Below, in pieces: positions 3 to 26,988 of a stretch of 29,515 nt of DNA. Every line of letters starts with the position of its first letter. The stretch's first letter is position 1. The stretch spans positions 64,001 to 93,515 of the IMG/VR virus record IMGVR_UViG_3300045919_000305; one strand, given 5' to 3'. The stretch comes from a virus. A program made the position numbers and the translations under genes. Under the pieces are notes generated by a model. The model was not told the origin of the DNA and searched no databases. It was given only the letters and a program-made list of their open reading frames with translations.

Positions 3-2015
3 GAAGTTTTGAAAGGTATTGAAAACCCGGAAACAAAAGAAGACTATCAACGTTTATTAAAAATCCGCATAGATGCTGTGCAGCCTTATTTGTCCGAGCC
101 GCTAAGCTTTCAAGATTTGCGCATGACATTAAACCCAGCCCAGCGCGCGCACTTCGACCAACTAGCGGCCACCGAGACGCGGACCGCGCGCAAAGCTAAA
201 GAGGATAACCAACGCGCGCACGTTCCGACCATGAACGCGGCGACTAGTGGCGAAATTCGCCAAACAACACACACGAAGACCGGCCGCGCTTTATTTGTGG
301 TGGTGCCCGCGGATCGCGTAGAATCAGACGTTTATAAACTATGGAACAGTACCGCTAAAAGGCTAGGCGGCTATTATTCATCGTTCCGCGGCGTGGGGGC
401 AATTCCCGGCTTTCAATTCCCGACGATGGGAGCGGCGGAAGCGTTCAACGCTTTCATAGGCGGCGATAAAGGACAAGCAAGCGAAGCAATCAAAGTCGCG
501 CGGAATGCTTACCTAGACGACAAAACCCAGACCACGGCCGAACGCTTGCGCGAGATGGCCAACGCTTTAACCGACAAGGCAAAAAGCGCGCTTAATCAGG
601 ACCGCAAAACAAACACCCATCGAAGAGCGGACGCGGCCGCGCGTGCTGATAGTGCAGCCCGTAAAGACAAGGCACTGGCCGAAACAATGCTAAATATCGC
701 CGAAGGTTTAGAAAATAACGCGCTGATTTTTCTTGATAAGGTCCGCGCAAAAACACAGGTCGAACTGTTAAACACTTTTGTAAAAAACGCCCAGTACAAA
801 CAGCAAACAACACTCTACAAAACTTATTTAGAGCGCGAACAGCACCAAGGCGAAGAGCCGAACACCGAGACGGCCGATTATATCGACTTCCCGAACTTTG
901 TTGCGTATCGCTCAGATTTGGCGAAAATAGCGCGCGTTTTAGTGAACCTGGACGGCTCAAGAATGTTAGGTAAAGAGCTACTTAAGATCGCGGACGATAC
1001 CAGCAAAGAGTACGATACTTTTGCCAAAAAGAATCTATTATCTGTTTCGCGTTTCACTATTAAGGATGGGGCAGCATGGGCGGAATTCAGCACCAAGCGA
1101 GACGCGGAAACGTCAATTTTCAGCTCGGGCTTAAGCGCGGTTGCTTCCGTTTTACAGGTCAAAAAAGGCGAGTATAGAATAATTCTTAGCGCTTCCGAAG
1201 CCATAAAGCGCGGAATATGGGAAGGCGACCACGACAAGAAAATCAATCTTTCATACAGTACCGGCGTTGAAATGGTAGAAAAATTAGGACGCGCGGCGCG
1301 TAAAAATTCAAGCGTTTCTATCCCGTGGCAATTTGAGAACGTTTACAACACGCGCAAAAAGCTAAGCGCGTTGGGTATCGAAAACCCGGCGGAATTACGC
1401 GCGGCGGTCCGCGAATTCATTAACCTGAAAGCGGCCACCCAACAAGAAGACCAGATAAAAAAGCTTGAGCGCTCAATGGTCGGCCGAAGTAATGACGGGC
1501 TTGATTTTTTCCCAACGCCCACCGAGACGGCCGACTTAATGATAGATTGTGCCGACTTGCGGGAAGGTTTAATAATTCTTGAACCGTCAGCCGGTTGGGG
1601 GCATATAGCCGAACGTATACGCGCGGCGGGTTTTGAGCCGGACGTTTGCGAACTTTCATCGAGTCGCCGCGAATTGTTAGAGCTGAAAGGTTTTAACGTG
1701 GTAACGATGGATTTTATGACGCGGACCCCGATAGAAACTTACGACCGCATAATCATGAACCCGCCGTTTAGTGATCGCCGAGACGCTGAACACGTACAAC
1801 ACGCCTACCACTTATTGAAAAAAGGCGGGCGGATCGTGGCGCTAATGGGCGAGGGTGTATTTTTTGGATCAGATAAAAAGGCGGTTGCCTTTCGTGAATG
1901 GCTTGAAAGCGTGAACGGCTCAGACGAAAAGCTGGACGCGGGAACGTTTCAAGATTCTAGTTTACCCGTGAATACTTCCGTTAGTGCGCGACTCGTGATT
2001 ATTGACAAGGTTTAA
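3..2015 (+). CDS. Large phage/plasmid protein with C-terminal adenine-type DNA methyltransferase domain (5' partial)
   Basis: The reading frame is open to the left edge of the window. The first possible start (TTG at 9) has no properly spaced ribosome binding site, so the gene probably begins upstream. Counting from that TTG, residues about 496-668 form a class I SAM-dependent methyltransferase: an FFPTP entry motif near 499, the SAM-binding loop EPSAGWGH from about 525, and the catalytic NPPF tetrad at 584-587, as in N6-adenine enzymes. The first ~480 residues match no family I can name. They include a basic, Ala/Arg-rich helical stretch (about 170-230) and an RLGGYYSSFRGVGAIPGF segment near 120 that recalls multidomain plasmid and phage proteins. 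The likely role is modification of phage or host DNA at an early stage. The methyltransferase call is firm; the N-terminal role and target site are unknown. Confidence 0.8.
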   Translation, partial: EVLKGIENPETKEDYQRLLKIRIDAVQPYLSEPLSFQDLRMTLNPAQRAHFDQLAATETRTARKAKEDNQRAHVPTMNAATSGEIRQTTHTKTGRALFVVVPADRVESDVYKLWNSTAKRLGGYYSSFRGVGAIPGFQFPTMGAAEAFNAFIGGDKGQASEAIKVARNAYLDDKTQTTAERLREMANALTDKAKSALNQDRKTNTHRRADAAARADSAARKDKALAETMLNIAEGLENNALIFLDKVRAKTQVELLNTFVKNAQYKQQTTLYKTYLEREQHQGEEPNTETADYIDFPNFVAYRSDLAKIARVLVNLDGSRMLGKELLKIADDTSKEYDTFAKKNLLSVSRFTIKDGAAWAEFSTKRDAETSIFSSGLSAVASVLQVKKGEYRIILSASEAIKRGIWEGDHDKKINLSYSTGVEMVEKLGRAARKNSSVSIPWQFENVYNTRKKLSALGIENPAELRAAVREFINLKAATQQEDQIKKLERSMVGRSNDGLDFFPTPTETADLMIDCADLREGLIILEPSAGWGHIAERIRAAGFEPDVCELSSSRRELLELKGFNVVTMDFMTRTPIETYDRIIMNPPFSDRRDAEHVQHAYHLLKKGGRIVALMGEGVFFGSDKKAVAFREWLESVNGSDEKLDAGTFQDSSLPVNTSVSARLVIIDKV

Positions 2016-2019
2016 GCTA

Positions 2020-2175
2020 ATGAACTATTACCCGACCCGATACGAAGCCCGCATAAACAGCGGCCACAAAATCATAATAAAGCGAATCGTTAAAGGCGAC
2101 CATGCCGGACTATTCGCCGCGTTTACAAATTGGGTTACTTATGGCCGCTATAAGCGCGGCGGTTTAATCCGGTAA
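2020..2175 (+). CDS. Small basic hypothetical protein (51 aa)
   Basis: An ATG follows four bases after the methyltransferase stop codon, with AAGG about 10 bases upstream inside the preceding gene. The product begins MNYYPTRYEAR, is rich in Arg and Lys, and ends just before leader repeat A. Nothing in it identifies a family. The tight spacing and same strand suggest co-expression with the methyltransferase gene. Confidence 0.5.
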   Translation: MNYYPTRYEARINSGHKIIIKRIVKGDHAGLFAAFTNWVTYGRYKRGGLIR

Positions 2176-2240
2176 TTAAAACCCGAACACCCAAGCCACG
2201 GACGGCCTGCAAACAATTAATTTTTAACTTAACTAGAGGA
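2174..2240 (+). repeat. Leader repeat A, copy 1
   Basis: This non-coding stretch is nearly identical to 4333-4398. Shared blocks are AATTAAAACCCGAACACC, AGCCACGGACGGCCTGC and TTTTAACTTAAC.AGAGGA. The last block includes the ribosome binding site for the gene starting at 2250. It begins at the stop codon of the preceding gene. Its conservation beyond the ribosome binding site suggests a regulatory or recombinational role. Confidence 0.8.
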
Positions 2241-2249
2241 TTAAAGACG

Positions 2250-3056
2250 ATGGAATTTTCAAAAGCGCATCAAGATGAATGCAACCGTTACGCCCTAAAA
2301 AATCGCCTTGCCAATTACAAGGTGCAAGCCGAGCGAATTAATAACGGCACTGAACGCCGAGTTATCGGACCAATTCACCCCGCCCCGCTAACATGGCGCG
2401 AAGCGCGCAAAGAATACCCGGCCAATAAAATCAGGCCGTTAGCTCTCATAAAAGCCGCGAATACCCGCGCATTAAACCAAGACAAAGACGCGCTTTACTT
2501 AGACGCATTCAAAGACATGCCCGGCTATGTTGCAGAACCGAAAGACGCTGATAAATGTTGCCGCATGGACTATACCGGATGGTTTACAACCGAGGACGGC
2601 TGGACAGGCGAAACGTTAATCGGCGTCGTCGTGTCAATCCGCCACCCGCAAAAGATAAACCCAGAAACAGAAGGCCATATATTTTATATGGCAGGCACTA
2701 AGCACTCAGATTGGGACGGCGTGACTGTTTACACCGGCGAACTGTTCGAAGAAGAAAGGGCCGCGGCCAGACGAGCCGACCAGATCGCAGAAAGGGAAGC
2801 GGAACAATGCAGGGAAGAGGATCAAAAATATCAGGCACAAGAAAAGATAGCCGAACTTAAAAAGGAATTCCACGAGCTGAACGTTCAAGCGCTGGAAGTT
2901 ATTAAAGACGCGCGAAACGCTTCCGGTTTATTCCCGGCGTCAATATGCGAACTGATTAAAAGCAAGCTGGACGAAACTTTAGAACGCAAGCGCGATATAT
3001 TGCGCGGCGTTAAAGAGTTAACAGATACGCCGTGGATCGTTAGCGAATGGCGCTAA
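2250..3056 (+). CDS. Hypothetical protein with C-terminal coiled coil (268 aa)
   Basis: The ATG is preceded by AGAGGA about 10 bases upstream, within leader repeat A. The first ~160 residues are mixed and contain a Trp/Gly-rich stretch (TGWFTTEDGWTGETLIG, about 109-125), suggesting a compact beta-rich fold. Residues about 165-215 are strongly charged (EEERAAARRADQIAEREAEQ) and should form a long helix or coiled coil, possibly for oligomerisation. I do not recognise the family. It is the first of a run of small same-strand genes of similar style. Confidence 0.7.
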   Translation: MEFSKAHQDECNRYALKNRLANYKVQAERINNGTERRVIGPIHPAPLTWREARKEYPANKIRPLALIKAANTRALNQDKDALYLDAFKDMPGYVAEPKDADKCCRMDYTGWFTTEDGWTGETLIGVVVSIRHPQKINPETEGHIFYMAGTKHSDWDGVTVYTGELFEEERAAARRADQIAEREAEQCREEDQKYQAQEKIAELKKEFHELNVQALEVIKDARNASGLFPASICELIKSKLDETLERKRDILRGVKELTDTPWIVSEWR

Positions 3057-3103
3057 GCTAAACAAACCCGAACATTTGAACCAAACTTAAAGAGGATAGG
3101 AAA

Positions 3104-3418
3104 ATGAGCTTAACAATCAGCATAGACGTAGATTTAAGAATCCGCGACCTACTTGAAACAGTGGCGAGGGATAGCGCCCTGATACAAAAAGAATCAAGAA
3201 AGCTAGATAGTAAAATCAGAGAGCAAGCGGAAACAATTAAGGGTTTAACCGAATCCAAAAGCCGCGAATTAGAATTGCTCAACACTTTAAGCGATATTCT
3301 CTTTATCATCAACGAAGATAAAGACGGCTCTTTTTTCCTTTGTGAAGAAGCCGCGGAAACGTTAAACGATGCGCGCGAGTTAGTAGCCCGCGTTCAAGCG
3401 TTAAGGGGGATTAAATGA
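3104..3418 (+). CDS. Small coiled-coil hypothetical protein (104 aa)
   Basis: An AGAGGATAGG ribosome binding site precedes the ATG. The product is almost wholly helical, with heptad-like spacing of Leu/Ile from about residue 10 to 65 and a second helix near the C terminus. There are no catalytic or metal-binding motifs. Its stop overlaps the start of the next gene by four bases, indicating translational coupling. Its function is unknown. Confidence 0.65.
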   Translation: MSLTISIDVDLRIRDLLETVARDSALIQKESRKLDSKIREQAETIKGLTESKSRELELLNTLSDILFIINEDKDGSFFLCEEAAETLNDARELVARVQALRGIK

Positions 3419-3621
3419 GCCCTGAATTATTAAAAGCACTTTGTGCAGTCTATGAACTAGCCCAACAAAACGTAAACGACTTTGAAACAGACGGCGAACA
3501 AGAACTCGAAGAAATGTTAATACAAAATGAAAAGGATTTAGAAACGGTTTTAGCTTTCATTCGTAAGCACCAAAAGGAAAGGCTAGAGTTAAAAACCGCT
3601 ATTGATGGGGTTATTCAATGA
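3415..3621 (+). CDS. Small acidic helical hypothetical protein (68 aa)
   Basis: It starts with an ATG overlapping the previous stop, with AAGGGGG just upstream, and ends by overlapping the next start. The product is acidic and helical (DFETDGEQELEEMLIQ region), with no recognisable motif. It lies between two coupled genes, so it is probably translated as part of the same polycistron. Confidence 0.6.
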   Translation: MSPELLKALCAVYELAQQNVNDFETDGEQELEEMLIQNEKDLETVLAFIRKHQKERLELKTAIDGVIQ

Positions 3622-3857
3622 GCCCCTCAGAACTCAAACAAAACTATTTAACCAATAACCCAAACGGATTATTTTTTAACGCTAAGAACATGAAATTCGC
3701 CGGCGATACGATGATGAATTACGGAGTCAGGCACGCCGCTATAAACGGCGGCGTGGAATGTTGGGAACTCTACCGCAAGCGGCCGGTTAAGCACGGCTTA
3801 CAGACAAGCGCTTATTTCGATAAGCAAACATTTAAAAAGTTACGTAAAGAGGATTAA
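3618..3857 (+). CDS. Conserved small phage/mobile-element protein (79 aa)
   Basis: It overlaps the upstream stop by four bases. The sequence NPNGLFFNAKNMKFAGDTM followed by NYGVR and VECWELYRKRPVKHG resembles a short protein I remember from many phage, plasmid and integrative-element gene clusters. No function is established for it as far as I know. The conserved aromatic and basic residues suggest nucleic-acid or protein binding, but that is inference. Confidence 0.7.
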   Translation: MSPSELKQNYLTNNPNGLFFNAKNMKFAGDTMMNYGVRHAAINGGVECWELYRKRPVKHGLQTSAYFDKQTFKKLRKED

Positions 3858-3860
3858 GCA

Positions 3861-4121
3861 ATGTTTTTAAGCAAACAAGAAAAAAGATTAGAAGTTGCTA
3901 AACAGGTTGACATTCAATTGTTGCGGTTACGAACCGCCGTGTTCCAAAAAATTGAAAAAGCGTTTTTAAGTAACGCTATACCCGATGACTGGTTAGAAGA
4001 CGACAACGCCGTTTTAGCCCTGGCAATCATGGAATCATTACATAAAGACGCGGCTTTAGATTTGAAACGCTTTACCAAGCGAACAGCGAAGGAAATAAAA
4101 AACTTACATTTGTTTTTATAG
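3861..4121 (+). CDS. Small hypothetical protein (86 aa)
   Basis: AAGAGGA lies about eight bases before the ATG. The product is basic at its N terminus (SKQEKRLEVAKQ) and largely helical, with no known motif. It sits three bases after the preceding stop, in the same operon-like run. Confidence 0.6.
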   Translation: MFLSKQEKRLEVAKQVDIQLLRLRTAVFQKIEKAFLSNAIPDDWLEDDNAVLALAIMESLHKDAALDLKRFTKRTAKEIKNLHLFL

Positions 4122-4146
4122 CCCAACCACCCATAAGGAAACTACA

Positions 4147-4338
4147 ATGAACACTCAAAAAACCAAAGATCAAACCCAAACAACTAACGCTTTCTTTTTA
4201 ACAGACGATGACAGCGACTTAACCTTTATCGCGGCAGACGTAAGCGTTACGCGCCCCGGATCGTTTGAATTCGCAGGAATTGAAGCCCAGCGTATCACCC
4301 GAGATTGGGACATATCGGATGCTTACGGCTGGAATTAA
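4147..4338 (+). CDS. Small acidic hypothetical protein (63 aa)
   Basis: AAGGAAACTACA precedes the ATG. The product has a polar, Thr/Gln-rich N terminus followed by an acidic segment (LTDDDSDLTFI). Its stop codon lies inside the start of leader repeat A copy 2. No family is recognised. Confidence 0.55.
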   Translation: MNTQKTKDQTQTTNAFFLTDDDSDLTFIAADVSVTRPGSFEFAGIEAQRITRDWDISDAYGWN

Positions 4339-4398
4339 AACCCGAACACCGAAGCCACGGACGGCCTGCTACCAATTTATTTTAACTTAACGAGAGGA
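4333..4398 (+). repeat. Leader repeat A, copy 2
   Basis: This is the second copy of the repeat seen at 2174-2240, with the same AATTAAAACCCGAACACC, AGCCACGGACGGCCTGC and TTTTAACTTAAC blocks. Here it includes the stop codon of the upstream gene and the AGAGGA ribosome binding site of the gene at 4406. Confidence 0.8.
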
Positions 4399-4405
4399 TA
4401 GAAAA

Positions 4406-4585
4406 ATGGCCGAATATACAGTAGTTTGGAAAATAGACATTGAAGCAAACAGCCCGCGCGAAGCGGCGGAGCTGGCCTTAAAAATTCAGCGCGATAAAAA
4501 AAGCACGGCGACTGTATTCGATGTTGCAGAATTCGAAGGATCGGACGACGATTACGAAATGATTGATTTATCGGAGGAAGTTTAA
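4406..4585 (+). CDS. Conserved small mobile-element protein (59 aa)
   Basis: The ATG is preceded by GAGAGGATAGAAAA in leader repeat A. The product begins MAEYTVVWKIDIEANSPREA and continues with LALKIQRDKKSTATVFDV. That pattern is common in short proteins of plasmids, integrative elements and phages that I remember, with a beta-alpha-beta look and no known activity. The length is typical for those proteins. It ends four bases before the next gene. Confidence 0.65.
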   Translation: MAEYTVVWKIDIEANSPREAAELALKIQRDKKSTATVFDVAEFEGSDDDYEMIDLSEEV

Positions 4586-4588
4586 ACC

Positions 4589-4840
4589 ATGTGCGAACTA
4601 ACCGAAACAAACAAAGCGCTAGACGTTTATCTAGCAGCCCAAGCCGAACGCGACAAGTTATGGGACGCTATAGAAACCACCGAAGACGTGTATATCGCCG
4701 AACGCGCAGAAAAGGAAGCGCTAGAACAGGTCCAGCGTGCGTTTTATACCGATACTCAGACTATAAACAACTTGGCGGATTGTATGACAGTCCCCTTAAA
4801 AAGCTTTATGCGCATGACTGGACGGGAGCCAAGACGATGA
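4589..4840 (+). CDS. Small helical hypothetical protein (83 aa)
   Basis: TCGGAGGAAG lies upstream of the ATG inside the end of the preceding gene. The product is helical and charged through residue ~50 (AQAERDKLWDAI, AERAEKEALEQV). Its stop overlaps the start of the gene at 4837. A competing frame over the same bases gives an unnaturally Arg-rich sequence and was rejected. Confidence 0.6.
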   Translation: MCELTETNKALDVYLAAQAERDKLWDAIETTEDVYIAERAEKEALEQVQRAFYTDTQTINNLADCMTVPLKSFMRMTGREPRR

Positions 4841-4977
4841 TTAACGTTAACGACTTAACCGACGAGCAAATGAAGGCGCTATACCAGATCATCGACGGCG
4901 AAGTACCGCAAGCGATACGCGAACTTTCAGACGATGAATTGCTTAACGAATTAACAGAGGATTCTAAAAATGATTAA
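4837..4977 (+). CDS. Small acidic hypothetical protein (46 aa)
   Basis: The ATG overlaps the preceding stop (ATGA). The product is acidic (LTDEQMKALYQ, LSDDELLNELTED) and probably forms two helices. An upstream in-frame start would run through the whole preceding gene in another frame and was not used. It overlaps the next gene by eight bases. Confidence 0.55.
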   Translation: MINVNDLTDEQMKALYQIIDGEVPQAIRELSDDELLNELTEDSKND

Positions 4978-5260
4978 AGAAATTAAACCCGGCGCTGAAC
5001 AACTAAGAGCCGAAGAAGCCGCGCGGCTTAAGTCAGAAGCCTTAAACCGTGCACTTACCCAAGCCGAAACTAAACACGCGGCACTAGACCGGAGTTTTCA
5101 AAGCTTCATCAATAGAGCGGCTTATGTGGGCGCGGTGTTAATCCTGTGTATACTGGCTGAAAGCGCTATTATCTGGACCCAAGCGCAGAAGGAATGCGCC
5201 CCGGCTAAAACATGGGGCTACCAAGACAAGAGCCAAACAGCCGAGCCAAAGAAGCATTGA
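4970..5260 (+). CDS. Single-pass membrane protein with cytoplasmic helical domain (96 aa)
   Basis: AGAGGA lies upstream of the ATG. Residues 1-45 are charged and helical. Residues about 50-69 (AYVGAVLILCILAESAIIW) form one hydrophobic membrane segment, followed by a short polar tail ending PKKH. Topology is probably N-in. Function is unknown; small inner-membrane proteins are common in early phage regions. Confidence 0.65.
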   Translation: MIKEIKPGAEQLRAEEAARLKSEALNRALTQAETKHAALDRSFQSFINRAAYVGAVLILCILAESAIIWTQAQKECAPAKTWGYQDKSQTAEPKKH

Positions 5261-5261
5261 T

Positions 5262-5648
5262 ATGAACCCAGACGAACGCCAAGACATTGAAGACCGAGTG
5301 TTTCAACTTAGCGACCTGATTGAAGAGCGCATAGGGCAACTGGCTAACATCGAAGCGAATATTGAATCTATTAAGTTTATGGCTCAGGGACGCGTGCCGC
5401 AAGGGGAAGAAAACGACCGGCTACACCGGAACTTCAAAGCCCTGCACGCGAAACGCTGCCAGCTTAAAGAATACCGAACCGAAGTTTACCATTTAAGAAA
5501 ACGGCTAGAACCGGAAACGCAAGCCGAAAGGGATACCCGAAGCCTAGCCCTATTTAAGCTTCTTAAAGAAAAGTTATATAACCAGCTTGGGGCAAACGCC
5601 TTTGCTAATTTAATCAACGAATGCAATCGAGAGATTGACGGATACTAA
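5262..5648 (+). CDS. Charged helical hypothetical protein (128 aa)
   Basis: It starts one base after the preceding stop. The product is highly charged and helical throughout, with probable coiled coil around residues 8-40 and 55-85. There are no metal-binding or catalytic motifs. No family is recognised. Confidence 0.6.
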   Translation: MNPDERQDIEDRVFQLSDLIEERIGQLANIEANIESIKFMAQGRVPQGEENDRLHRNFKALHAKRCQLKEYRTEVYHLRKRLEPETQAERDTRSLALFKLLKEKLYNQLGANAFANLINECNREIDGY

Positions 5649-5660
5649 AAGGATACTAAC

Positions 5661-5810
5661 ATGAAAGTAAGAATCGTAAAAAACCAACGCGTCATAGCAA
5701 CCGCACAGATCAAAAACGCAGATTGCGCCTCAGTCCGTATTTACTATGCAACCGGCCACCAAGTTTTAACGAAAAGCGGGACAGATTTAACCGATCGGCT
5801 ATACCGCTAA
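5661..5810 (+). CDS. Small basic hypothetical protein (49 aa)
   Basis: AAAAGGA lies before the ATG at 5661. The product begins MKVRIVKNQRVIATAQIKNA, looks like a short beta-rich domain and ends DLTDRLYR. No family is recognised. It is followed directly by leader repeat B copy 1. Confidence 0.5.
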   Translation: MKVRIVKNQRVIATAQIKNADCASVRIYYATGHQVLTKSGTDLTDRLYR

Positions 5811-5841
5811 ACCAAACACCGCAGTCAAACCTTTTTGGAGA
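5811..5841 (+). repeat. Leader repeat B, copy 1
   Basis: The block ACC.AACACCGCAGTCAAAC, then a T-rich run and TGGAGAAAA, recurs at 6085-6120 with few differences and more loosely at 6528-6560. Each copy ends in the ribosome binding site of the next gene. Confidence 0.75.
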
Positions 5842-5847
5842 AAAACC

Positions 5848-6084
5848 ATGTTGCTTTATGAAAACCGTTTTTTAGTACTCGCTATTATCCTGTTCGGAAT
5901 TGGCAATCTATTACTAGGCATAGGGATAGGCCGTTTAACAACCCAAATGGAAAAAACCGGGAAGCCTACCCGCGAGCAGGTATATGCGCCATCAGACATG
6001 AAACCGCAGCCTTGTATGCTCGATTTCCATCCTACTCGTTTATTCGATTCGGCAGACCCTAATTGCCTTAAGGCATACCACTAA
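5848..6084 (+). CDS. Small membrane-anchored protein (78 aa)
   Basis: TGGAGAAAAACC precedes the ATG. Residues about 7-29 are strongly hydrophobic and Gly-rich (LAIILFGIGNLLLGIGIG), giving a single N-terminal membrane segment. The polar remainder has two Cys residues (near 56 and 73). Probably an inner-membrane protein with its tail in the cytoplasm or periplasm; function unknown. Confidence 0.6.
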   Translation: MLLYENRFLVLAIILFGIGNLLLGIGIGRLTTQMEKTGKPTREQVYAPSDMKPQPCMLDFHPTRLFDSADPNCLKAYH

Positions 6085-6120
6085 ACCGAACACCGCAGTC
6101 AAACATTTTCTGGAGAAAAT
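6085..6120 (+). repeat. Leader repeat B, copy 2
   Basis: It matches 5811-5841 (ACCGAACACCGCAGTCAAAC, T-rich run, TGGAGAAAA), fills the whole gap between two small membrane-protein genes and supplies the ribosome binding site for the gene at 6123. Confidence 0.75.
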
Positions 6121-6122
6121 TT

Positions 6123-6260
6123 ATGCCCGTTATTATCGCCGCAGTTATCGCCGTTGTACTTTACAAAGCGCATCAGGCTATTTTTAACACCGAAAAAACT
6201 GGTAAACAACGTAATTTTCTGGTATACTTATACGCACTGTTTTTAAGGCTACACCAATGA
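6123..6260 (+). CDS. Very small membrane protein (45 aa)
   Basis: TGGAGAAAATTT precedes the ATG. The product starts MPVIIAAVIAVVLYKAHQ, a short hydrophobic segment, and has a second hydrophobic stretch (FLVYLYALFL) near its end. Its stop overlaps the next start. No family is recognised. Confidence 0.5.
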   Translation: MPVIIAAVIAVVLYKAHQAIFNTEKTGKQRNFLVYLYALFLRLHQ

Positions 6261-6382
6261 AATTAATCAAAGCAGTCCCGACGCTAATTAGCGTCTTTTT
6301 TAATGTCGCGATTGGAGCCTATCTAGTCGCACGGATTAAACCCGACGGAGAAAAGCGATGCGCGAATACCTCAAAGCACTGA
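6257..6382 (+). CDS. Possible very small membrane protein (41 aa) containing a terminator-like palindrome
   Basis: The ATG overlaps the upstream stop (ATGA). The product, MKLIKAVPTLISVFFNVAIG onward, has one hydrophobic segment. The coding bases 6280-6301 form a textbook hairpin plus six T, which would be odd inside a translated gene. Either the palindrome is an attenuator within a real gene, or the frame is fortuitous. It overlaps the start of the gene at 6358 by 25 bases. Confidence 0.4.
   Translation: MKLIKAVPTLISVFFNVAIGAYLVARIKPDGEKRCANTSKH
6280..6301 (+). terminator. Candidate intrinsic terminator or attenuator
   Basis: GACGCTAATTAGCGTC is a perfect palindrome (6-bp stem, AATT loop) followed directly by TTTTTT. 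It lies about 50 bases downstream of a TGGTATACT extended -10-like element (6221-6228), whose -35 is poor. Confidence 0.6.
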
Positions 6383-6570
6383 ACGTTTTGTGCCTTTTCA
6401 TAGCGTGCGCGGTTATCGTCTTTTTCTTGACAACCTTTGCCACGGACGCATCGAATAACTGTTCGCAGTTTAGCAACCCAACGCGCCACGAGCTGTGTGG
6501 ATCGAACCTACATCCAGACCTCGTTAAGCCGAACACCGCATTCGAAAATCTTCTGGAGGATTTGAAATGA
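6358..6570 (+). CDS. Small membrane-anchored protein with extracytoplasmic Cys pair (70 aa)
   Basis: GACGGAGAAAAGCG precedes the ATG. Residues about 8-27 (LNVLCLFIACAVIVFFLTTF) form a membrane anchor or uncleaved signal. The remainder is polar with two Cys at about 35 and 47 that could form a disulfide if exported. The last codons overlap a copy of leader repeat B, and the stop overlaps the next start. Its role is unknown. Confidence 0.6.
   Translation: MREYLKALNVLCLFIACAVIVFFLTTFATDASNNCSQFSNPTRHELCGSNLHPDLVKPNTAFENLLEDLK
6528..6560 (+). repeat. Leader repeat B, degenerate copy 3 (inside coding sequence)
   Basis: GCCGAACACCGCATTC with a following TTCTGGAGGA resembles copies 1 and 2, but here it lies within the end of the gene at 6358-6570. 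It still ends in the ribosome binding site of the next gene. Confidence 0.55.
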
Positions 6571-6752
6571 CCGCTAAACAAAAGAAAGTAATGTTTTTTG
6601 GAACAATAGCCATAGGTTTGTGGCTATTCGGCGTCTACGCTTTAGCCGGAGTAAAAGGGGTAATACTAGCCGCCTGTTCGATGGCCGCAGGGATACAGCT
6701 TTTGTCCTGTATACACGACTATTTAACCCATGATAGTCAGTCGAGCCGCTAG
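6567..6752 (+). CDS. Small two-segment membrane protein (61 aa)
   Basis: CTGGAGGA lies upstream of the ATG, which overlaps the previous stop. There are two hydrophobic segments, residues about 8-27 (VMFFGTIAIGLWLFGVYALA) and 30-47, separated by a short turn with one Lys. It is the last of a tandem set of membrane microproteins. Function is unknown. Confidence 0.6.
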   Translation: MTAKQKKVMFFGTIAIGLWLFGVYALAGVKGVILAACSMAAGIQLLSCIHDYLTHDSQSSR

Positions 6753-6921
6753 ACGAAAAGCCGAAATGCACGGGCAAGCCTATTACGAAACAGGTAAGCC
6801 CTGTAAGCACGGGCATGTTACACTACGCAACACCGAACACCGGCACTGCCGGGAATGTAAACGATTACAATCCGCTGCGCAACGCGCGGCTTTGAAACTA
6901 CAGGAACAAAACCCATGTTAA
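6730..6921 (+). CDS. Small zinc-finger-like protein (63 aa)
   Basis: It starts within the end of the preceding gene. The motif PCKHGH at 24-29 with HCREC at 39-43 gives C25/H27/H29 and C40/C43, as in the treble-clef zinc knuckle found at the start of some HNH or endonuclease VII-like phage proteins. The nuclease core is absent, so DNA or RNA binding is likelier than cleavage. The N terminus is basic. Confidence 0.6.
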   Translation: MIVSRAARRKAEMHGQAYYETGKPCKHGHVTLRNTEHRHCRECKRLQSAAQRAALKLQEQNPC

Positions 6922-7136
6922 ACCATTTCACTGAAGAATTTTTTAAACAACTCTTCGTCCACCATACGTCCGAAGTTGTTTGTAAGCAGATAAAACGCCA
7001 CTGCCACCATAATTCAGTTAACCCTAAAGATATTTTTACTACAGAACAATTGCTGGCAGCGTTAACCGATGCCGAGATCATTGCCGAATTCGAAGCGCGT
7101 AACCTGGACGATCATTGCTGTGATCCGTATAGTTAA
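6915..7136 (+). CDS. Small His/Cys-rich hypothetical protein (73 aa)
   Basis: CAGGAACAAAACCC precedes the ATG, which overlaps the end of the previous gene. The product contains a His/Cys-rich stretch (KRHCHHNS, about 28-35) and ends DDHCCDPYS, so it may bind a metal. No family is recognised. Confidence 0.55.
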   Translation: MLNHFTEEFFKQLFVHHTSEVVCKQIKRHCHHNSVNPKDIFTTEQLLAALTDAEIIAEFEARNLDDHCCDPYS

Positions 7137-7224
7137 TCTAGTTCCCGATATATTTGGGCTATTTATAGGGGTTTGGCTACCAATGGAAGCCGCGTACCGC
7201 GAGTTTGTCGCATACTTAAATTGA
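7120..7224 (+). CDS. Possible very small membrane protein, GTG start (34 aa)
   Basis: A GTG-initiated frame overlaps the previous gene by 17 bases and encodes IRIVNLVPDIFGLFIGVWL, a single hydrophobic segment, then a short amphipathic tail. No convincing ribosome binding site is visible, so translation would depend on coupling. The stop codon lies in the -35 box of the promoter at 7221. Confidence 0.35.
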   Translation: MIRIVNLVPDIFGLFIGVWLPMEAAYREFVAYLN

Positions 7225-7249
7225 CAAACAACCTAAAACCCTGTAAACT
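7221..7249 (+). promoter_or_regulatory. Sigma70-type promoter (TTGACA-17-TAAACT)
   Basis: A perfect -35 (TTGACA, 7221-7226), a 17-base spacer and -10 TAAACT (7244-7249) are followed by ATTAGCCC, an element shared with four other promoters here. A hairpin with a T-run begins about eight bases after the expected start site. It would transcribe the genes from 7314 if the hairpin is passed. Confidence 0.75.
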
Positions 7250-7262
7250 ATTAGCCCTATAC

Positions 7263-7289
7263 AAGCCCGCTTACTTAGCGGGTTTTTCT
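7263..7289 (+). terminator. Hairpin plus T-run directly after a promoter
   Basis: CCCGCT-TACTT-AGCGGG (6-bp stem, extendable outward by weak pairs) is followed by TTTTT. It lies between the promoter at 7221 and the gene at 7314, so it acts either as a terminator for the upstream operon or as an attenuator. Confidence 0.65.
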
Positions 7290-7313
7290 ACACCTAAAAT
7301 AAGGAGAACCGCA

Positions 7314-7583
7314 ATGTTTGGATGGTTAAAAGCGAAACCCGCTAAACAAATACTGAACGAGTACGACGCAGGGTTTCTGCGCGCTTGTAAAGTCGCGTTG
7401 TATGGCGGGGCCGTTAACGAACACCCAATTTCAAAATCTTACAGGGCGGGGGAAGAGGAAGCGATTAAGATGATACGCTTGCGTCTTAACTATGCGGGGC
7501 CTATCTGCGATATACCGCATCTGGATTTTGTAGTGCAAAACCCGGAAAGAATGGAAGAATTACAAAGGTTAAGGGATAGCTAA
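7314..7583 (+). CDS. Hypothetical protein (89 aa)
   Basis: AAGGAG sits seven bases before this ATG. A longer frame from 7173 would run through the promoter and hairpin and was rejected. The product begins MFGWLKAKPAKQILNEYDAG and is helical, ending with a charged helix (ERMEELQRLRDS). No family is recognised. The stop overlaps the next start. Confidence 0.65.
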   Translation: MFGWLKAKPAKQILNEYDAGFLRACKVALYGGAVNEHPISKSYRAGEEEAIKMIRLRLNYAGPICDIPHLDFVVQNPERMEELQRLRDS

Positions 7584-7765
7584 TGAGTAAGGAACCTTCA
7601 CCTTTATTAATAACTGCTCTTGTGTTTATTATGGTACCTGCATTATGTATAGCGGCCATTTGGTCGCAAGAGCATTATGCCATTTACGGCCCCCTGCCTT
7701 TTTTCATTGTATGGGGGATTTGCCTATTAGTTGTTTGGTATGTACTTAGGGAAGCTAATAAATGA
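7583..7765 (+). CDS. Small two-segment membrane protein (60 aa)
   Basis: The ATG overlaps the preceding stop (TAATG). There are hydrophobic segments at about 9-27 (LITALVFIMVPALCIAAIW) and 38-55 (LPFFIVWGICLLVVWYVL), joined by a short polar loop. Probably an inner-membrane protein with both ends on the same side. Function is unknown; it is coupled to the following zinc-finger gene. Confidence 0.6.
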   Translation: MSKEPSPLLITALVFIMVPALCIAAIWSQEHYAIYGPLPFFIVWGICLLVVWYVLREANK

Positions 7766-8010
7766 GCGACGACGCGGATTTTTCAAGTCAACTAGAGATT
7801 GACGAACACCAACGGATCTTTAAGGATCGAGCACTGAAACAAGCGGAAGAAAAGAAACTGCTTGGCCAAGTGCGAATAGAATGTGGGGTTAAATACTGCA
7901 TCGACTGCGAAGAAGAAATACTCCCAAAAGCCCGATCGCAATTAGCATGGGTCGCTCGGTGTATAGATTGCCAAGAATTCTTGGAGCGGGAAAGTAAAAG
8001 CTACAATTAA
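7762..8010 (+). CDS. DksA/TraR-type C4 zinc-finger protein (82 aa)
   Basis: Cysteines at 46, 49, 67 and 70 form the C-X2-C-X17-C-X2-C zinc finger of the DksA/TraR family, with the typical surroundings IDCEEEILPKAR and RCIDCQ. The length matches short TraR-like phage and plasmid members. Such proteins insert into the secondary channel of host RNA polymerase and reprogramme promoter choice without needing ppGpp. An N-terminal acidic helix (DDADFSSQLEIDEHQ) fits the channel-entering helix. A role in shifting host transcription is likely but inferred from the family. Confidence 0.85.
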   Translation: MSDDADFSSQLEIDEHQRIFKDRALKQAEEKKLLGQVRIECGVKYCIDCEEEILPKARSQLAWVARCIDCQEFLERESKSYN

Positions 8011-8043
8011 AAACGCTTAGGCTCAACCAGCGTTTAAATTTTT
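8011..8043 (+). terminator. Weak hairpin with T-run
   Basis: AAACGCT and AGCGTTT (7-bp stem, 11-base loop) are followed by AAATTTTT. It lies directly after the TraR-like gene and before the gene at 8063. The loop is long and the tract interrupted, so it is at best a partial terminator. Confidence 0.4.
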
Positions 8044-8062
8044 AAAAAACTGGAGAAAATTA

Positions 8063-18160: not shown

Positions 18161-18733
18161 ATGGCCGAACAAATTTTAATTCAAGAAGCGCGAATTGCTT
18201 TCCCTGACCTTTTTGAAGCAGTACAGTTTCAGGGGCAAGGGCCTTTCCAATACCGTTGTACCTTTTTAATCCCGCCGGAAAACCCTGCGGTAAAACATAT
18301 CAACGCGGCAATGGTAAAAATTGCGGCGGATAAATGGGGCGCTAAAGCTGAAGCCATTTTGAAGCAGATTAAAGCGACTTCTGGTAAGTGCTTTTTTGTT
18401 GACGGGGACACCAAAGCGTATAACGGTTATGCGGGTAATTGGGCAGTTACCGCGACCCGCAATCAAGATGCCGGCGCACCGTTGGTCGTTGGCCGTGGCG
18501 GTAGAAAGGACGTTTTGTCAGCAGCGGACGGAAAGATATACTCAGGTTGCTACGTCAATGGCACCATTGAAGTGTGGGCGCAAGATAACAGTTTTGGCAA
18601 AGCTATCCGTGCTACTTTAGTAAATGTCCAATTTGTTAAGAACGGCGAGTCCTTTGGCGGCGCGGCTCCGGCTAACGCTAACAACTTGGACGAGCTGGCC
18701 TTCGAGGACGACGAACTCGACGAAGATATTTAA
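18161..18733 (+). CDS. DUF2815 single-strand-DNA-binding-type protein (190 aa)
   Basis: Of two adjacent ATG codons, the second gives better spacing to GGAGA and was chosen. The sequence matches DUF2815: an early ARIAFPDLFEA, then FQYRCTFLIPPENP, GYAGNWAVTATR, GCYVNGTIEVWAQDN and IRATLVNVQFVKNGESFG, ending in an acidic tail (LAFEDDELDEDI) typical of single-strand-binding proteins. It should coat single-stranded DNA during phage replication or recombination, and its acidic tail may dock partners. The gene pair with DUF2800 upstream is a common phage arrangement. An intrinsic terminator follows. Confidence 0.85.
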   Translation: MAEQILIQEARIAFPDLFEAVQFQGQGPFQYRCTFLIPPENPAVKHINAAMVKIAADKWGAKAEAILKQIKATSGKCFFVDGDTKAYNGYAGNWAVTATRNQDAGAPLVVGRGGRKDVLSAADGKIYSGCYVNGTIEVWAQDNSFGKAIRATLVNVQFVKNGESFGGAAPANANNLDELAFEDDELDEDI

Positions 18734-18823: not shown

Positions 18824-19135
18824 ATGTCTGATATATTTGATCACGAACTGGACGCTTGGGAATCTTACGGACGGGACGACGGAGAAGGCGCTGCCGGAAA
18901 CCCAGATTATTACCACGTCTGGGTGGAAGTTAACCGTATATTGTTAGAAAATAACGTCTGGACGCGAGTAGAATTAGTTCCAGGATTTGAGTTAAATGTC
19001 GCCTCAAAACTTATCCGCAAAACAAAACCTTCCGGAAGCCGGATGAAAATATTTGTCCACGGGGAAACTTTCAAAAAAATATGCCAACGCGAACAATCGC
19101 ACCAATTAGCCGAATTACCAGTTTACGAGGATTGA
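18824..19135 (+). CDS. Hypothetical protein (103 aa)
   Basis: This ATG lies after the terminator; a longer frame from 18791 would begin within the hairpin and was rejected. A ribosome binding site is weak (GGGATAG). The product has an acidic N terminus (DIFDHELDAWESYGRDDGEG) and a basic middle (LIRKTKPSGSRMKIF). No family is recognised. Confidence 0.6.
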   Translation: MSDIFDHELDAWESYGRDDGEGAAGNPDYYHVWVEVNRILLENNVWTRVELVPGFELNVASKLIRKTKPSGSRMKIFVHGETFKKICQREQSHQLAELPVYED

Positions 19136-19138
19136 CAT

Positions 19139-23004: not shown

Positions 23005-25396
23005 AATCATTTTATGGTCCGACACAGAAACTTCCAGCACCTGTGACTTAGGTTCTGCGGGTACCGCGAAGTACGCTGAGCATCCGTCAACACGGGTTCA
23101 GCTTTTTTCGTTTGCTTTTAATGACAACCCCGTGGATCTTTGGAGCCCTGAAGACGGCGAAATCATGCCTGCGGATCTGGAAGAAGCCCTCGAAGACCCT
23201 TCGGTAATTCTACAATTTCATAACGCCTTTTTTGACCGGTCTGTGCTGATCGCGACTAAAAGGCACTTACGCCGGTTATCCCGCCGCAAAAAGGATTGGG
23301 ATTTCAGCATTGAGCGATTTCGTTGTTCGATGGCGCAAGCTCTATCCCACGGCTTACCGGGAGGGTTGGAGAAACTGGGGCATATCTTAGGTATCCGTGA
23401 GGACGCTAAGAAGATCGCCGATGGCCATCGGTTAGTTCGACTATTCTGCAAGCCGTGCGGTTATATGCCCGACGGTAAAACCTATAAATGGAACACGCCG
23501 GAAACGCACCCCGAGGATTGGGCAAAGTATAAGGAATACTGCATTAGCGATACCGGTTCCATGAGAGAAGTAGTTAAGAAGATCCCGCGTTGGAATTACC
23601 CAGGCAACGCGCATGAGGTTGAATTATGGCGTATGGATCAAACAATTAATAATCGTGGTATGTTTATCGACTTGGATCTGGTAAACGCCGCCATGAACGC
23701 GATTACCGTAACGCAAGCGCAATTATCCTGCTCCACTAAGGAAATGACCGGCGGCAAAGTACAGAATGCTACACAGCGGGATGAAATGCTCAAACACATA
23801 TTGGCGGAGTTCGACATTGAGCTACCCAACATGCAAAAAGCGACGCTTAATCGCTTAATCGAAAACGAGGATACGCCGCCGGCTTTACGCGATTTGCTGG
23901 AAGTCCGACTAAGCGCCTGTACCACGTCAACGGCTAAGTATAAACGGATCGTGCAGGCTACCTGTGAGGATGGGCGATTAAAAGGCACAATCCAGTTTGC
24001 GGGTGCTTCACGCACATTGCGGGATGCGGGGCGCATTACCCAAGTTCAAAATTACCCATCACGAGGATTAATGAGCGTTAAAGATACCAAATTTGGCATT
24101 GAAGCGCTTAAGTATGGCATGGAGGAAATCTTTGATCTGGACGTGATGTGGTTAACACAATCGGCGTTACGTTACACGATCGTAGCGCCGCCCGGTAAAA
24201 AACTCTTAGTTTCCGACTTAGCGAATATCGAAGGGCGGGTATTATCGTATTTGGCAGGGGAGGAATGGAAATTAGAAGCTTTCCGCGCTTATGACGCGGG
24301 CACCGGTCCGGATCTTTATAAACTGGCATACGCAAAAGCCTTCGGTGTTAAGGTTTCTGATGTGACCAAAGAGCAAAGAAACTATGTCGGCAAAATTATG
24401 GAATTGGCTTTTGGATATGGTGGGGCAAGTGCTGCGGTAGTTACTTTCGCTTTATCCTTTGGTTTAAAACTATCCGATTTGGCCGAACAGATTATTCCTA
24501 ACGTACCTGATACCGTGCTAAAAGAGGCGCAAAGCTTCTTTGGGTGGTTGGACGAGCAAGACATAACCAGCGCTCGGGCAAAAGCGAAAAAAGCGGGCAC
24601 CCCGAAGGAATGGTTTCAATACTATGAGCGTAAGCGGACGGGAGGCTTACCCATCGAGCAGTTTATCGCCTTTGAAAGTTTGAAACGTTTATGGCGTGCG
24701 GAACATCCGGCTACGGTGGCTTTCTGGAAGGATACCGAGAGCGCGTGCCGTGACGCAATCGACGTGCCGAATAAAAGTTTTTATTTCGGCAACGGATGTT
24801 ATGCCCGCCGATCGGGTAAATGGGTTCGGTTGGTGTTACCCAGCGGCCACGCACTTTGCTATCCGGGTATGGAAGTTGGCGGCGGCACCAAGGTATTTAA
24901 GATCACACAAAGCGGCCCTAAAAAGCACTATTTCGTCACGGAAGAAGGCGCTGAGAAACCTAATACGGGTTTTGAGACGATAGAAGAGGCACGTAGAAGT
25001 ATAGACAGTAAGGCCGACTCTGGGAACATGACTAAGGTGCCCTTAACGGATTGCTTGGAAGCGTATCGGATATCTAGTGGAAGTTCTGGTTTGAGGTTTA
25101 AAGGCGTTCACCCAATTTCTAAAAAGTGGGGTTGGATCTATACTCATGGGGGCCGCCTATCAGAAAATTTATCTCAGTCTTTCGCCCGTGACATTTTCAA
25201 ATATGGCCAACTTGAAGCGGAACGCCAAGGGTATCACGTTATTCTTCCAGTGCATGACGAGTTGGTTAGCGAAGTGCCGGACACGGACGAATATACGATC
25301 CACCACCTCGAAGGTATTATGGCGACCGTACCGCCGTGGGCTAAAGGCATTCCGCTGGCGGCCGAAGGCTTTGCAGATTACGCTTATCATAAATAA
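22997..25396 (+). CDS. polA: Family A DNA polymerase with 3'-5' exonuclease domain (799 aa)
   Basis: The exonuclease domain is N-terminal: D9/E11 (SDTET), a NAFFD motif with D80, and Y181-x3-D185 (YCISD), the DEDDy set. The polymerase domain shows motif A SDLANIEGR (D407, E412), motif B from R461 through K466 and Y474, and motif C VHDELVSEV (H753, D754, E755). In motif B the residue four after the conserved Lys is Leu rather than the usual Phe/Tyr, as in a phage subgroup I remember with ELAxGYGG. It should be the replicative polymerase, working with the primase-helicase and strand-binding protein of this window. Its last 13 codons and the following promoter are duplicated at 26032. Confidence 0.95.
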   Translation: MPEIILWSDTETSSTCDLGSAGTAKYAEHPSTRVQLFSFAFNDNPVDLWSPEDGEIMPADLEEALEDPSVILQFHNAFFDRSVLIATKRHLRRLSRRKKDWDFSIERFRCSMAQALSHGLPGGLEKLGHILGIREDAKKIADGHRLVRLFCKPCGYMPDGKTYKWNTPETHPEDWAKYKEYCISDTGSMREVVKKIPRWNYPGNAHEVELWRMDQTINNRGMFIDLDLVNAAMNAITVTQAQLSCSTKEMTGGKVQNATQRDEMLKHILAEFDIELPNMQKATLNRLIENEDTPPALRDLLEVRLSACTTSTAKYKRIVQATCEDGRLKGTIQFAGASRTLRDAGRITQVQNYPSRGLMSVKDTKFGIEALKYGMEEIFDLDVMWLTQSALRYTIVAPPGKKLLVSDLANIEGRVLSYLAGEEWKLEAFRAYDAGTGPDLYKLAYAKAFGVKVSDVTKEQRNYVGKIMELAFGYGGASAAVVTFALSFGLKLSDLAEQIIPNVPDTVLKEAQSFFGWLDEQDITSARAKAKKAGTPKEWFQYYERKRTGGLPIEQFIAFESLKRLWRAEHPATVAFWKDTESACRDAIDVPNKSFYFGNGCYARRSGKWVRLVLPSGHALCYPGMEVGGGTKVFKITQSGPKKHYFVTEEGAEKPNTGFETIEEARRSIDSKADSGNMTKVPLTDCLEAYRISSGSSGLRFKGVHPISKKWGWIYTHGGRLSENLSQSFARDIFKYGQLEAERQGYHVILPVHDELVSEVPDTDEYTIHHLEGIMATVPPWAKGIPLAAEGFADYAYHK

Positions 25397-25456
25397 TTTT
25401 ACATAGCTAATAGCATGTGCTATACTATTAGCTCGTTTTTACTGGAGAGAGTAGTG
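25358..25456 (+). repeat. Direct repeat, copy 1: polymerase 3' end plus promoter and start codon
   Basis: The stretch from the codons for AAEGF..DYAYHK through the promoter, ribosome binding site (CTGGAGAGAGTA) and start codon recurs 674 bases downstream at 26032-26130 with scattered substitutions and no gaps. The two copies bracket the genes at 25454 and 25963. Confidence 0.85.
25398..25433 (+). promoter_or_regulatory. Promoter TTTACA-17-TATACT with palindromic operator
   Basis: TTTACA (25398-25403), a 17-base spacer and TATACT (25421-25426) with an extended TGC. TAGCATGTGCTA (25411-25422) overlaps the -10, and AGCTAATAG...CTATTAGCT (25405-25433) is a perfect 9-bp inverted repeat around it. 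It serves the GTG-start gene at 25454. Confidence 0.75.
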
Positions 25457-25966
25457 AGCAGAGAAGTTAGAAGAGTGCCTAAAGGTTGGCAACACCCTAA
25501 AAGCGATGAGGGTGAATTTATTGGCCTTTCGGAATTATCGGGGCCGTTTAAAGAGATAGACGACGAATGGAACGAAGGCCGTGCTAAGTGGCTGGAAGGG
25601 TACAGCAGAGACTACAGCACTCCGTTATCAGAAACATGGGTAAAAATAGACCCTGAATATGCTCGTTTACGGTATACCGACTATTGCGGCCGCCGCCCCA
25701 GCCCCGATGATTACATGCCTGAATGGGGGGCCGAAGAGGCTACGTGGTTCATGATGTATGAAACGGCATCAGAGGGCACGCCCATAAGCCCTGCTTTTGA
25801 AACACCTGAAGAACTCGCTAGATGGCTGACCGATACAGGGGCTTCGGCCTTTGGTAAAAGTACGGCTTCTTATGAAGCGTGGTTGCGGGTATGTAACGGG
25901 GGGTACGCACCTTCTATTGTGGTTACGAATGGCGTCATATTAAATGGAGTGGAGGCTTTGTCGTGA
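25454..25966 (+). CDS. Conserved phage hypothetical protein (170 aa)
   Basis: A GTG start with CTGGAGAGAGTA upstream was chosen; a longer frame from 25415 would begin inside the promoter palindrome. The sequence SREVRRVPKGWQHPK, DYMPEWGAEEATWFMMYETASEGTP and TPEELARWLTDTGASAFG matches a protein type I remember from many unrelated phages, of unknown role. It lies inside a duplication of the polymerase tail and promoter, which suggests late insertion into this locus. Confidence 0.8.
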   Translation: MSREVRRVPKGWQHPKSDEGEFIGLSELSGPFKEIDDEWNEGRAKWLEGYSRDYSTPLSETWVKIDPEYARLRYTDYCGRRPSPDDYMPEWGAEEATWFMMYETASEGTPISPAFETPEELARWLTDTGASAFGKSTASYEAWLRVCNGGYAPSIVVTNGVILNGVEALS

Positions 25967-26070
25967 AGCTTCTAAAAATACTCGCCATAGGGATTTTTAC
26001 CACAGGCGCAGCTCTGTTGTCGCTTAAAATAGCGGCTGAAGGGTTTAGCGATTACGCTTATCATAAATAA
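25963..26070 (+). CDS. Chimeric membrane microprotein ending in a duplicated polymerase tail (35 aa)
   Basis: A GTG overlaps the upstream stop, with GGAGG seven bases before it. The product starts KLLKILAIGIFTTGAALLSL, a single hydrophobic segment, and ends AAEGFSDYAYHK, nearly the same as the polymerase C terminus (AAEGFADYAYHK). The shared tail comes from the duplicated segment at 26032. It may be a real microprotein or an accident of the duplication. Confidence 0.5.
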   Translation: MKLLKILAIGIFTTGAALLSLKIAAEGFSDYAYHK

Positions 26071-26130
26071 TTTTACACAGCCAATAGCATATGCTATACT
26101 GTTAGCTCGGTTTTACTGGAGAGAGTAATG
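26032..26130 (+). repeat. Direct repeat, copy 2: polymerase-tail codons plus promoter and start codon
   Basis: It is colinear with 25358-25456 at an offset of 674 bases, from the AAEGF codons to the start codon (ATG here, GTG in copy 1). Substitutions include synonymous changes in the shared tail codons and one Ala-to-Ser change. Confidence 0.85.
26072..26107 (+). promoter_or_regulatory. Promoter TTTACA-17-TATACT with perfect palindromic operator
   Basis: TTTACA (26072-26077), a 17-base spacer and TATACT (26095-26100), preceded by TGC. TAGCATATGCTA (26085-26096) is a perfect 12-bp palindrome over the -10. It is followed by GTTAGCTC. It serves the Prs-like, NAMPT-like and thymidylate synthase genes. 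Confidence 0.75.
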
Positions 26131-26988
26131 ATTAAATTAACCTACCGCAGCCATTTACAGGTCGTGACCACTGAGATCACTGAATTCCTGACATTTTCAG
26201 GCGGTGAAGAGCACGTCCGCTTGGCTATTGAGTTCGATCCTGGTTCGCCTATTACTATTACCGCACGGCTTACCTCTTCTCAGTGGATTATGCGACTGTT
26301 CTTGGTAACGGATGCACTGGATGGAATGGGCGCTAATAGAAAAGATATCGGCTTAGTTATCCCTTATTTGCCGTATGCCCGCCAAGATCGGGTGTGTTCC
26401 CCTGGAGACGCGTTTAGCTTACGGGCTTTCGTAAGGTTGATTGCCGCGCAAGGCTACAGCCAGATCGCTTGTTTAGACATTCATAACGGAGAAAGCTTAA
26501 AGCTATTTTGGAACCACGACATACGGGTGCACAACCAGACGAGTACGATTTTTTCTCGGTATTTCAAAGTCCCTGAAATAACGCACGTTGTAGCACCAGA
26601 CAAGGGAGCAGGTAATCGGGTAAGCGCGTGGCACGGCGCCATGAAAGCCGATAACCCCGAATTAAAATACCTCCAGATGGATAAAAAACGGAATCCTGCT
26701 ACCGGGGAAATAACAGGGCTTAGCTTACCGTACCTTGACCACGCAGACAAATTAACAGGCGCCTTTTGTCTAATCGTTGACGATATTTGCGATGGCGGCC
26801 GCACTTTCATAGAAGCGGCTAAGTTACTGAAAGGGAAAGGGGCTAAACGGGTAGAGCTTTTTGTATCCCACGGGATATTTAGCAAAAGATTCGATGAATT
26901 ACTGTCGCCAGAGGCTATCGATTTTATCCACACAACCGATTCGATTTGCGTTAGCGAACACCCAAGATTGAGAGTATTCAAGCTATAA
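26128..26988 (+). CDS. prs: Ribose-phosphate pyrophosphokinase-like enzyme (PRPP synthetase or ADP-ribose pyrophosphate synthetase) (286 aa)
   Basis: The protein has the two-domain phosphoribosyltransferase-type fold of PRPP synthetases: YARQDRVCSPGDAFS (83-97) is the catalytic flexible loop, LDIHNGES (116-123) the pyrophosphate-binding region, APDKGAGNRV (156-165) the SPDxGG-equivalent, and VDDICDGGRTF (217-227) the PRPP-binding loop. At 286 residues it is slightly shorter than bacterial Prs (~310). It should use ATP to pyrophosphorylate ribose 5-phosphate or, if it is the NARP1 enzyme Adps, ADP-ribose. The NAMPT-like gene 14 bases downstream is its obvious partner. The family is certain, the exact substrate is not. 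Confidence 0.85.
   Translation: MIKLTYRSHLQVVTTEITEFLTFSGGEEHVRLAIEFDPGSPITITARLTSSQWIMRLFLVTDALDGMGANRKDIGLVIPYLPYARQDRVCSPGDAFSLRAFVRLIAAQGYSQIACLDIHNGESLKLFWNHDIRVHNQTSTIFSRYFKVPEITHVVAPDKGAGNRVSAWHGAMKADNPELKYLQMDKKRNPATGEITGLSLPYLDHADKLTGAFCLIVDDICDGGRTFIEAAKLLKGKGAKRVELFVSHGIFSKRFDELLSPEAIDFIHTTDSICVSEHPRLRVFKL

Follow-up and report, generated by a model that had tools for sequence, protein, structure and literature searches.

Cluster K mycobacteriophages carry start-associated sequences (SAS and ESAS), whose function is unknown (PMC3203893). SAS are short asymmetric repeats that lie, nearly always in one orientation, immediately upstream of the starts of many small non-structural genes. 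About half of them have an additional inverted-repeat element upstream; a role in translation has been suspected, and they are possible targets for recombination (PMC3203893). In Citrobacter phage Mordin, a 26-bp repeat accompanies eight genes; the authors compare it to SAS, and Felix O1-like phages have such repeats too (PMC4611695). In the Mordin sequence, we found that most junctions of that tract repeat the whole intergenic module, from the stop codon to the Shine-Dalgarno (SD) sequence. (One 91-nt Mordin copy has 1439 matching places in 287 phage records.) Two other elements are worth comparing: the T7 gene 10 leader with its epsilon enhancer (PMC8748333, PMC9590205; we took the epsilon sequence from PMC9590205) and the PeSL promoter/stem-loop cassettes of T4-like phages (Arbiol 2010 and Comeau 2014, as cited in PMC4503421).

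The window that we analyzed spans 29,515 nt, from base 64001 to base 93515 of a virus record of 93,515 bases (G000). The same 127 bases occur, exactly, at both ends of the record (G000:C1:1-127 and 93389-93515), which suggests that the map is complete and circular, at about 93.4 kb. Its family A polymerase is 44-45% identical to the polymerases of named phages, its terminase resembles those of Burkholderia, Pseudomonas and Klebsiella phages, and it has a methyltransferase domain like F116's. In these matches, the large genes resemble those of podovirus-type phages of Gram-negative hosts. We considered F116-like phages as a counterpart and rejected them: the methyltransferase domain is shared, but the gene context is different. 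Positions 2000-8100, searched as DNA against named phages, showed no similarity.

We found one close relative, IMGVR_UViG_3300020045_006155 (stretches L004 and L017; record G001). Its homologue of a 668-aa protein is 82% identical, and its end is colinear with positions 2960-8063 of the window. A protein search for further relatives found only this one close contig (L004/G001), and a genome scan added just two distant loci. Several other features of the pair are recorded here. Before the 668-aa gene there is a hairpin (window 8011-8036; L004:3614-3634) whose loop, TAGGCTCAACC, is identical in both phages and whose stem has a compensatory change (GCT/AGC vs GCC/GGC). A promoter-like sequence, TTTTCTGGTATACTTAT / TTTTCTAGTATAATTAT, is kept before the homologous gene at 6257 / L004:2790 (window 6205-6240; L004:2740-2770). 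And L017 has palindromes like the attC sites of integrons between small genes (reverse-complement coordinates 1337, 1826, 17263, 18702, and 18976), one of which adjoins a homologue of window gene 25415-25966. A strict stem test on these palindromes was passed by two in L017 and none in G000, and a search for a plasmid match found none.

The first-pass annotation had reported two repeats, A and B, at the boundaries of small genes, and self-matches place both far beyond chance. Leader A1 (2174..2249, on the + strand like all of the window's leaders) runs from gene 2020-2175 to gene 2250-3056, and leader A2 (4333..4405) separates genes 4147-4338 and 4406-4585; the two are 91% identical over 68 nt (2174-2241 vs 4333-4399, E = 7e-18). 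A1 consists of the stop codon, CCGAACACC, a hairpin (GCC-ACGGAC-GGC, 2195-2206), TTTTTAACTTAA, and the SD sequence AGAGGAT; A2 holds the upstream stop codon, the hairpin, and the SD. Leaders B1 (5801..5847) and B2 (6075..6122) include the last codons and the stop codon of genes 5661-5810 and 5848-6084, respectively, and are 91% identical over 45 nt (5801-5844 vs 6075-6119, E = 4e-10). Leader B3 (6524..6566) is 85% identical to B2 over 34 nt (6525-6558, E = 2e-5). A and B have a common core, as the annotation had proposed, but the CCGAACACC core is all that they share, and their 3' halves differ. The core-like site that it had pointed out at 3068 belongs to a shorter leader, A' (3057..3103), with the form CCCGAACA...AAACTTAAAGAGGAT; A' precedes gene 3104-3418 and has a counterpart at the same junction of the relative (L004:205-249). 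The family has three more leaders shortly before the start of the window (L013:18201-18270, 19081-19161, and 19540-19597), one of which repeats the A hairpin with a 4-bp stem (GGCC-ACGGAC-GGCC).

B3 had been described as a copy within coding sequence. In the window, no stop codon precedes the core in gene 6358-6570, so B3 is read as coding. The homologue in L004, however, stops directly before CCGAACACA, and the leader there that matches B3 is non-coding and is followed at once by the homologue of gene 6915-7136. A coding stretch at 7412-7440, TTAACGAACACCCAATTTCAAAATCTT, resembles B3 (81% over 31 nt, E = 0.02); perhaps this is another leader that was absorbed into a gene, or perhaps it is chance. 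The coding copies of the core at 858 (Pro-Asn-Thr) and 6833 (Thr-Glu-His) are ordinary codons and not leaders.

All of these leaders have the same anatomy: a stop codon, CCRAACA 0-11 nt further on, a G-poor stretch, an SD sequence, and a start codon. The core lies 0-11 nt past the preceding gene's stop codon in all 10 leaders that we measured. The 5' edge of the copies is at the upstream stop codon or slightly before it, which the annotation had not mentioned (this codon is inside the repeated stretch in A2, B1, and B2), and every copy stops at the SD of the next gene, as the annotation had said. The G-poor stretch contains a small hairpin in A-type leaders and, in some leaders, TAACTTWA, which resembles T7 epsilon. 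An Rfam search found no match.

The leaders occupy a particular kind of junction. Most genes of the tract overlap or nearly touch, and a listing of all gaps shows few of at least 37 nt. Gaps of at least 30 nt contain CCRAACA in 7 of 10 cases in G000 and 4 of 9 in L004, or 11 in 19 altogether, where 0.16 would be expected for that length of sequence. Overlapping genes in the same tract mostly have no leader. With up to one mismatch, CCGAACACC occurs 16 times in the window vs 5.2 expected, and none of 100 shuffles reached 16.

Like SAS, these repeats keep to one orientation directly before several gene starts (CCRAACA occurs 13 times forward and 3 times in reverse across the tract at 62.0-72.1 kb in G000). 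However, they fail as SAS on both sequence and gene association. The SAS consensus, GGGATAGGAGCCC, has no match in the window with up to two mismatches. ESAS are largely tied to gene families across phages, but here the two phages share the core at no more than 2 of 6 leader junctions, namely those that precede the homologue of 3104 and follow that of 6358. Also unlike SAS, the modules include the upstream stop codon. In Mordin, a phage of a Gram-negative host, the repeat CCAACAATCCTAAACTGGAGAATCTA finishes in the SD of small genes, as here. The module there also goes from stop to SD and has both a hairpin and an A/C-rich stretch; the architecture is the same in other letters. The common sequence is only a loose CCaACA...CTGGAGAA, and Mordin differs in having more copies and a larger GGGG/CCCC hairpin. 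Overall, the leaders are similar to the SAS of cluster K and to the intergenic repeats of Mordin. This kind of element has already been described in a few other phages.

We then examined RNA structure and translation signals. With leader and non-leader starts assigned by hand, leader starts are less structured (median minimum free energy -9.7 vs -15.2 kcal/mol for other starts, p = 0.002) and more often unpaired at -45..-15 (0.68 vs 0.48, p = 0.001); these differences follow in part from low G content, and duplicated copies are not independent. The accessibility of the SD and start was no different between leader and other starts (0.49 vs 0.54, p = 0.13), and some leaderless genes, such as 4147, also have open, G-poor upstream regions. 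Strong RNA structure was sought in the leaders, and they fold no better than shuffles.

The sequence TAACTTWA also points towards initiation. On the forward strand, an SD and a start follow it in 7 of 8 cases, compared to 10% in a composition-matched background and 0 of 5 cases on the reverse strand (two pairs among these cases are duplicates, so this is less independent evidence than it might seem). As in the T7 gene 10 leader, an exact copy of the full epsilon sequence, TTAACTTTAA, precedes the SD in one leader, shortly before the window begins (G000 62247), and the epsilon-like element TAACTTAA is found in A1, A2, and two L004 leaders. Unlike T7, the B leaders have no epsilon-like part. For T7, no copying of this leader as an intergenic module is known to us.

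Could the leaders instead be transcription elements, with promoters or terminators repeated for co-regulation, as in PeSL? As far as PeSL are described in the source that we cite, the two are alike as repeated intergenic regulatory elements that are linked to gene shuffling, and reused promoter leaders do occur in this phage: a different repeat, at 20854, 25407, and 26081, has an extended -10 promoter-like site (TGTGCTATACT/TATGCTATACT). But PeSL, by that description, contain an early promoter, and between 1900 and 8100 there are only 4 promoter-like calls vs 7.9 in shuffles, with none in the A or B leaders. Terminator calls across the same region are at the level of shuffles, the hairpin has no directly following U-tract, and no promoter or terminator call falls inside any leader. 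Those calls leave a promoter or terminator role unsupported, and we consider it very improbable.

The comparison with the relative bears on how the leaders are related to gene content. Orthologues are in identical order in the two phages, but leaders do not track genes. L004 has its own near-identical leader pair, CCCAAACAACTAACTTAAAGAGGATT, at 218 and 1914 (self-match E = 1e-12), with further leaders at 2509 and 3058, so each genome has its own families. At junction 4339-4405, L004 keeps only the hairpin, with GCCAGGGACGGC (L004:1667-1678) for GCCACGGACGGC, and the rest of the leader differs.

The annotation had suggested that the repeats are sites for exchanging gene cassettes, and the strong form of this idea is that they are primarily homologous-exchange sites, or linkers, that swap small genes, with a secondary role in translation. 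Some changes in gene content do adjoin leaders. The small gene between the direct repeats B1 and B2 (5848..6084) is absent from L004, as are genes 6567-6752 and 6730-6921 (6567..6921), directly 3' of B3, and two leaderless genes at 4589..4977, where L004 has a CCCAAACA leader instead. Near the polymerase, a 100-nt repeat brackets a gene that is missing from that place in the relative. Other changes lie outside the leaders. Gene content differs at 7 of 12 junctions, namely 4 of 6 with a leader in either phage and 3 of 6 without, which is not a significant association (Fisher p = 1). Also, the edges of the repeats are functional edges (the stop codon and the SD), which is not required of an exchange site. 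The annotation had named two observations that would speak against exchange, namely the same gene order with unrelated leaders and breakpoints outside the repeats. Both were seen at least once (for the former, gene pair 4147-4338 / 4406-4585 keeps its order in L004 with a mostly unrelated leader), and therefore the leaders are not exclusive exchange sites and the cassette suggestion is only partly borne out. We think it unlikely that exchange is their primary role.

Copies that contain the end of an upstream gene indicate how the leaders spread. First, the L004 copies at 218 and 1914 share TAATGGATRAATAATATAAACCC / TAATGGATRAATAA directly upstream of the leader. This shared tail is a gene's coding end at 1914 and is non-coding at 218, so this copy of the leader brought along a tail whose gene is missing there. 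Second, B1 and B2 have last codons in common (ATACCRCTAA). These tails are short, at about 8 nt in B1/B2 and 3 nt in A1/A2. Third, and this is the strongest case for copied gene tails, the 100-nt repeat near the polymerase (25358..25457 and 26032..26131, both +) is 89% identical between its copies. Copy 1 comprises the last 12 polymerase codons, the stop, the extended -10 promoter-like site, the SD, and the start, and copy 2 lies before the gene for ribose-phosphate pyrophosphokinase. The first 39 nt of copy 2 are a remnant of a polymerase tail (AAEGFSDYAYHK stop). This reading agrees with the relative's polymerase, whereas the window's own polymerase has AAEGFADYAYHK; the remnant may therefore have been acquired from another phage. 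(In the relative, the polymerase-end motif occurs only once, after pol.) Because upstream tails are inside the copies, the copied unit is a gene end, stop, leader, and SD. As leaders do not follow genes and some copies carry upstream tails, they appear to have been duplicated from junction to junction by recombination. The copying itself is supported; that its route was recombination is what we infer.

The annotation's other suggestion was that the leaders bind a post-transcriptional regulator. Nothing that we found supports a dedicated regulator that binds all copies; only the hairpin of A-type leaders fits a known one. The CsrA/Rsm core consensus is CANGGANG, which the A hairpin fits. Host CsrA/RsmA might block or time translation by binding both the hairpin, with its ACGGAC hexaloop, and the GGA of the SD. 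ANGGAN hexaloop hairpins with an all-GC stem occur upstream of 4 of 156 starts vs 0.11 in shuffles, and all four are A-type leaders or the orthologous L004 junction, where the loop is changed at the N position only. The second GGA, in the SD, is about 38-43 nt downstream of the hairpin as read from the sequence, a spacing inside the 10-60 nt range applied in PMC4066749. An ANGGA hairpin loop with a second GGA that overlaps the SD within 10-60 nt is seen in A-type leaders only.

But three of the four hairpins duplicate one element. The B, A', and C leaders and all other L004 leaders lack an ANGGAN hairpin. In L013, at about 18225-18243, the hairpin of a sister leader contains no GGA. Under the CSRA_TARGET rule (PMC4066749), 3 of 13 leader genes qualify vs 4 of 35 others, with no clear enrichment; A1 passes but A0 and A2 fail. 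No CsrA gene was found in either phage record (G000 or G001). A scan of the collection for an A leader with the hairpin gave 55 matches, which is near chance by a rough estimate, and nearly all were GC-rich and not leader-like; a second leader pattern had no matches. Elsewhere in the record, a strong hairpin followed by a T-rich stretch (AGCGCC-AAGGAT-GGCGCT, G000:C1:13532-13549) looks like a terminator and has a CsrA-like loop. We consider it quite improbable that the leaders are regulator sites of this kind. The hairpin is the only part of a leader that is clearly kept at an orthologous junction in the relative, and it is also present at two further genes; the CsrA-like form (C-ANGGAC-G) at that one junction is an unproven lead. 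There seems to be only a slim chance that host CsrA/RsmA controls early phage genes by way of the hairpin and SD site of A-type leaders. If it does, then the phage spreads a host-sensing translational switch along its genome.

A role in initiation without any regulator, which the annotation had not raised, fits better. With moderate confidence, and on the basis of sequence comparisons, we predict that the repeats are intercistronic translation-initiation leaders that were spread by recombination. Each leader would close one cistron with a stop codon at or near the leader's 5' edge, then provide an A/C-rich, G-poor, weakly structured region for the approach of the ribosome (CCRAACA, and in some copies the epsilon-like TAACTTWA), and finally the SD of the next gene. 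We infer that initiation from the leaders is stronger. Genes that do not overlap their upstream neighbor would have no translational coupling, and because coupling is unavailable they would need a self-contained leader. A good leader would be copied to other junctions by recombination within each phage lineage. The 3' join would fall at the SD, and the 5' join would coincide with the upstream gene's end or lie just within it; because copying would be within each lineage, the sharing of sequence would be recent and genome-specific. The copies would then be patches of homology beside which small genes were gained or lost.

Reports of reused start-associated leaders cover few phage groups, and these phages add a Gram-negative one. 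The upstream-gene tails within copies are sequence evidence for how such leaders spread. And the pattern suggests a rationale that can be tested: genes that do not overlap their neighbors may need a self-contained initiation leader.
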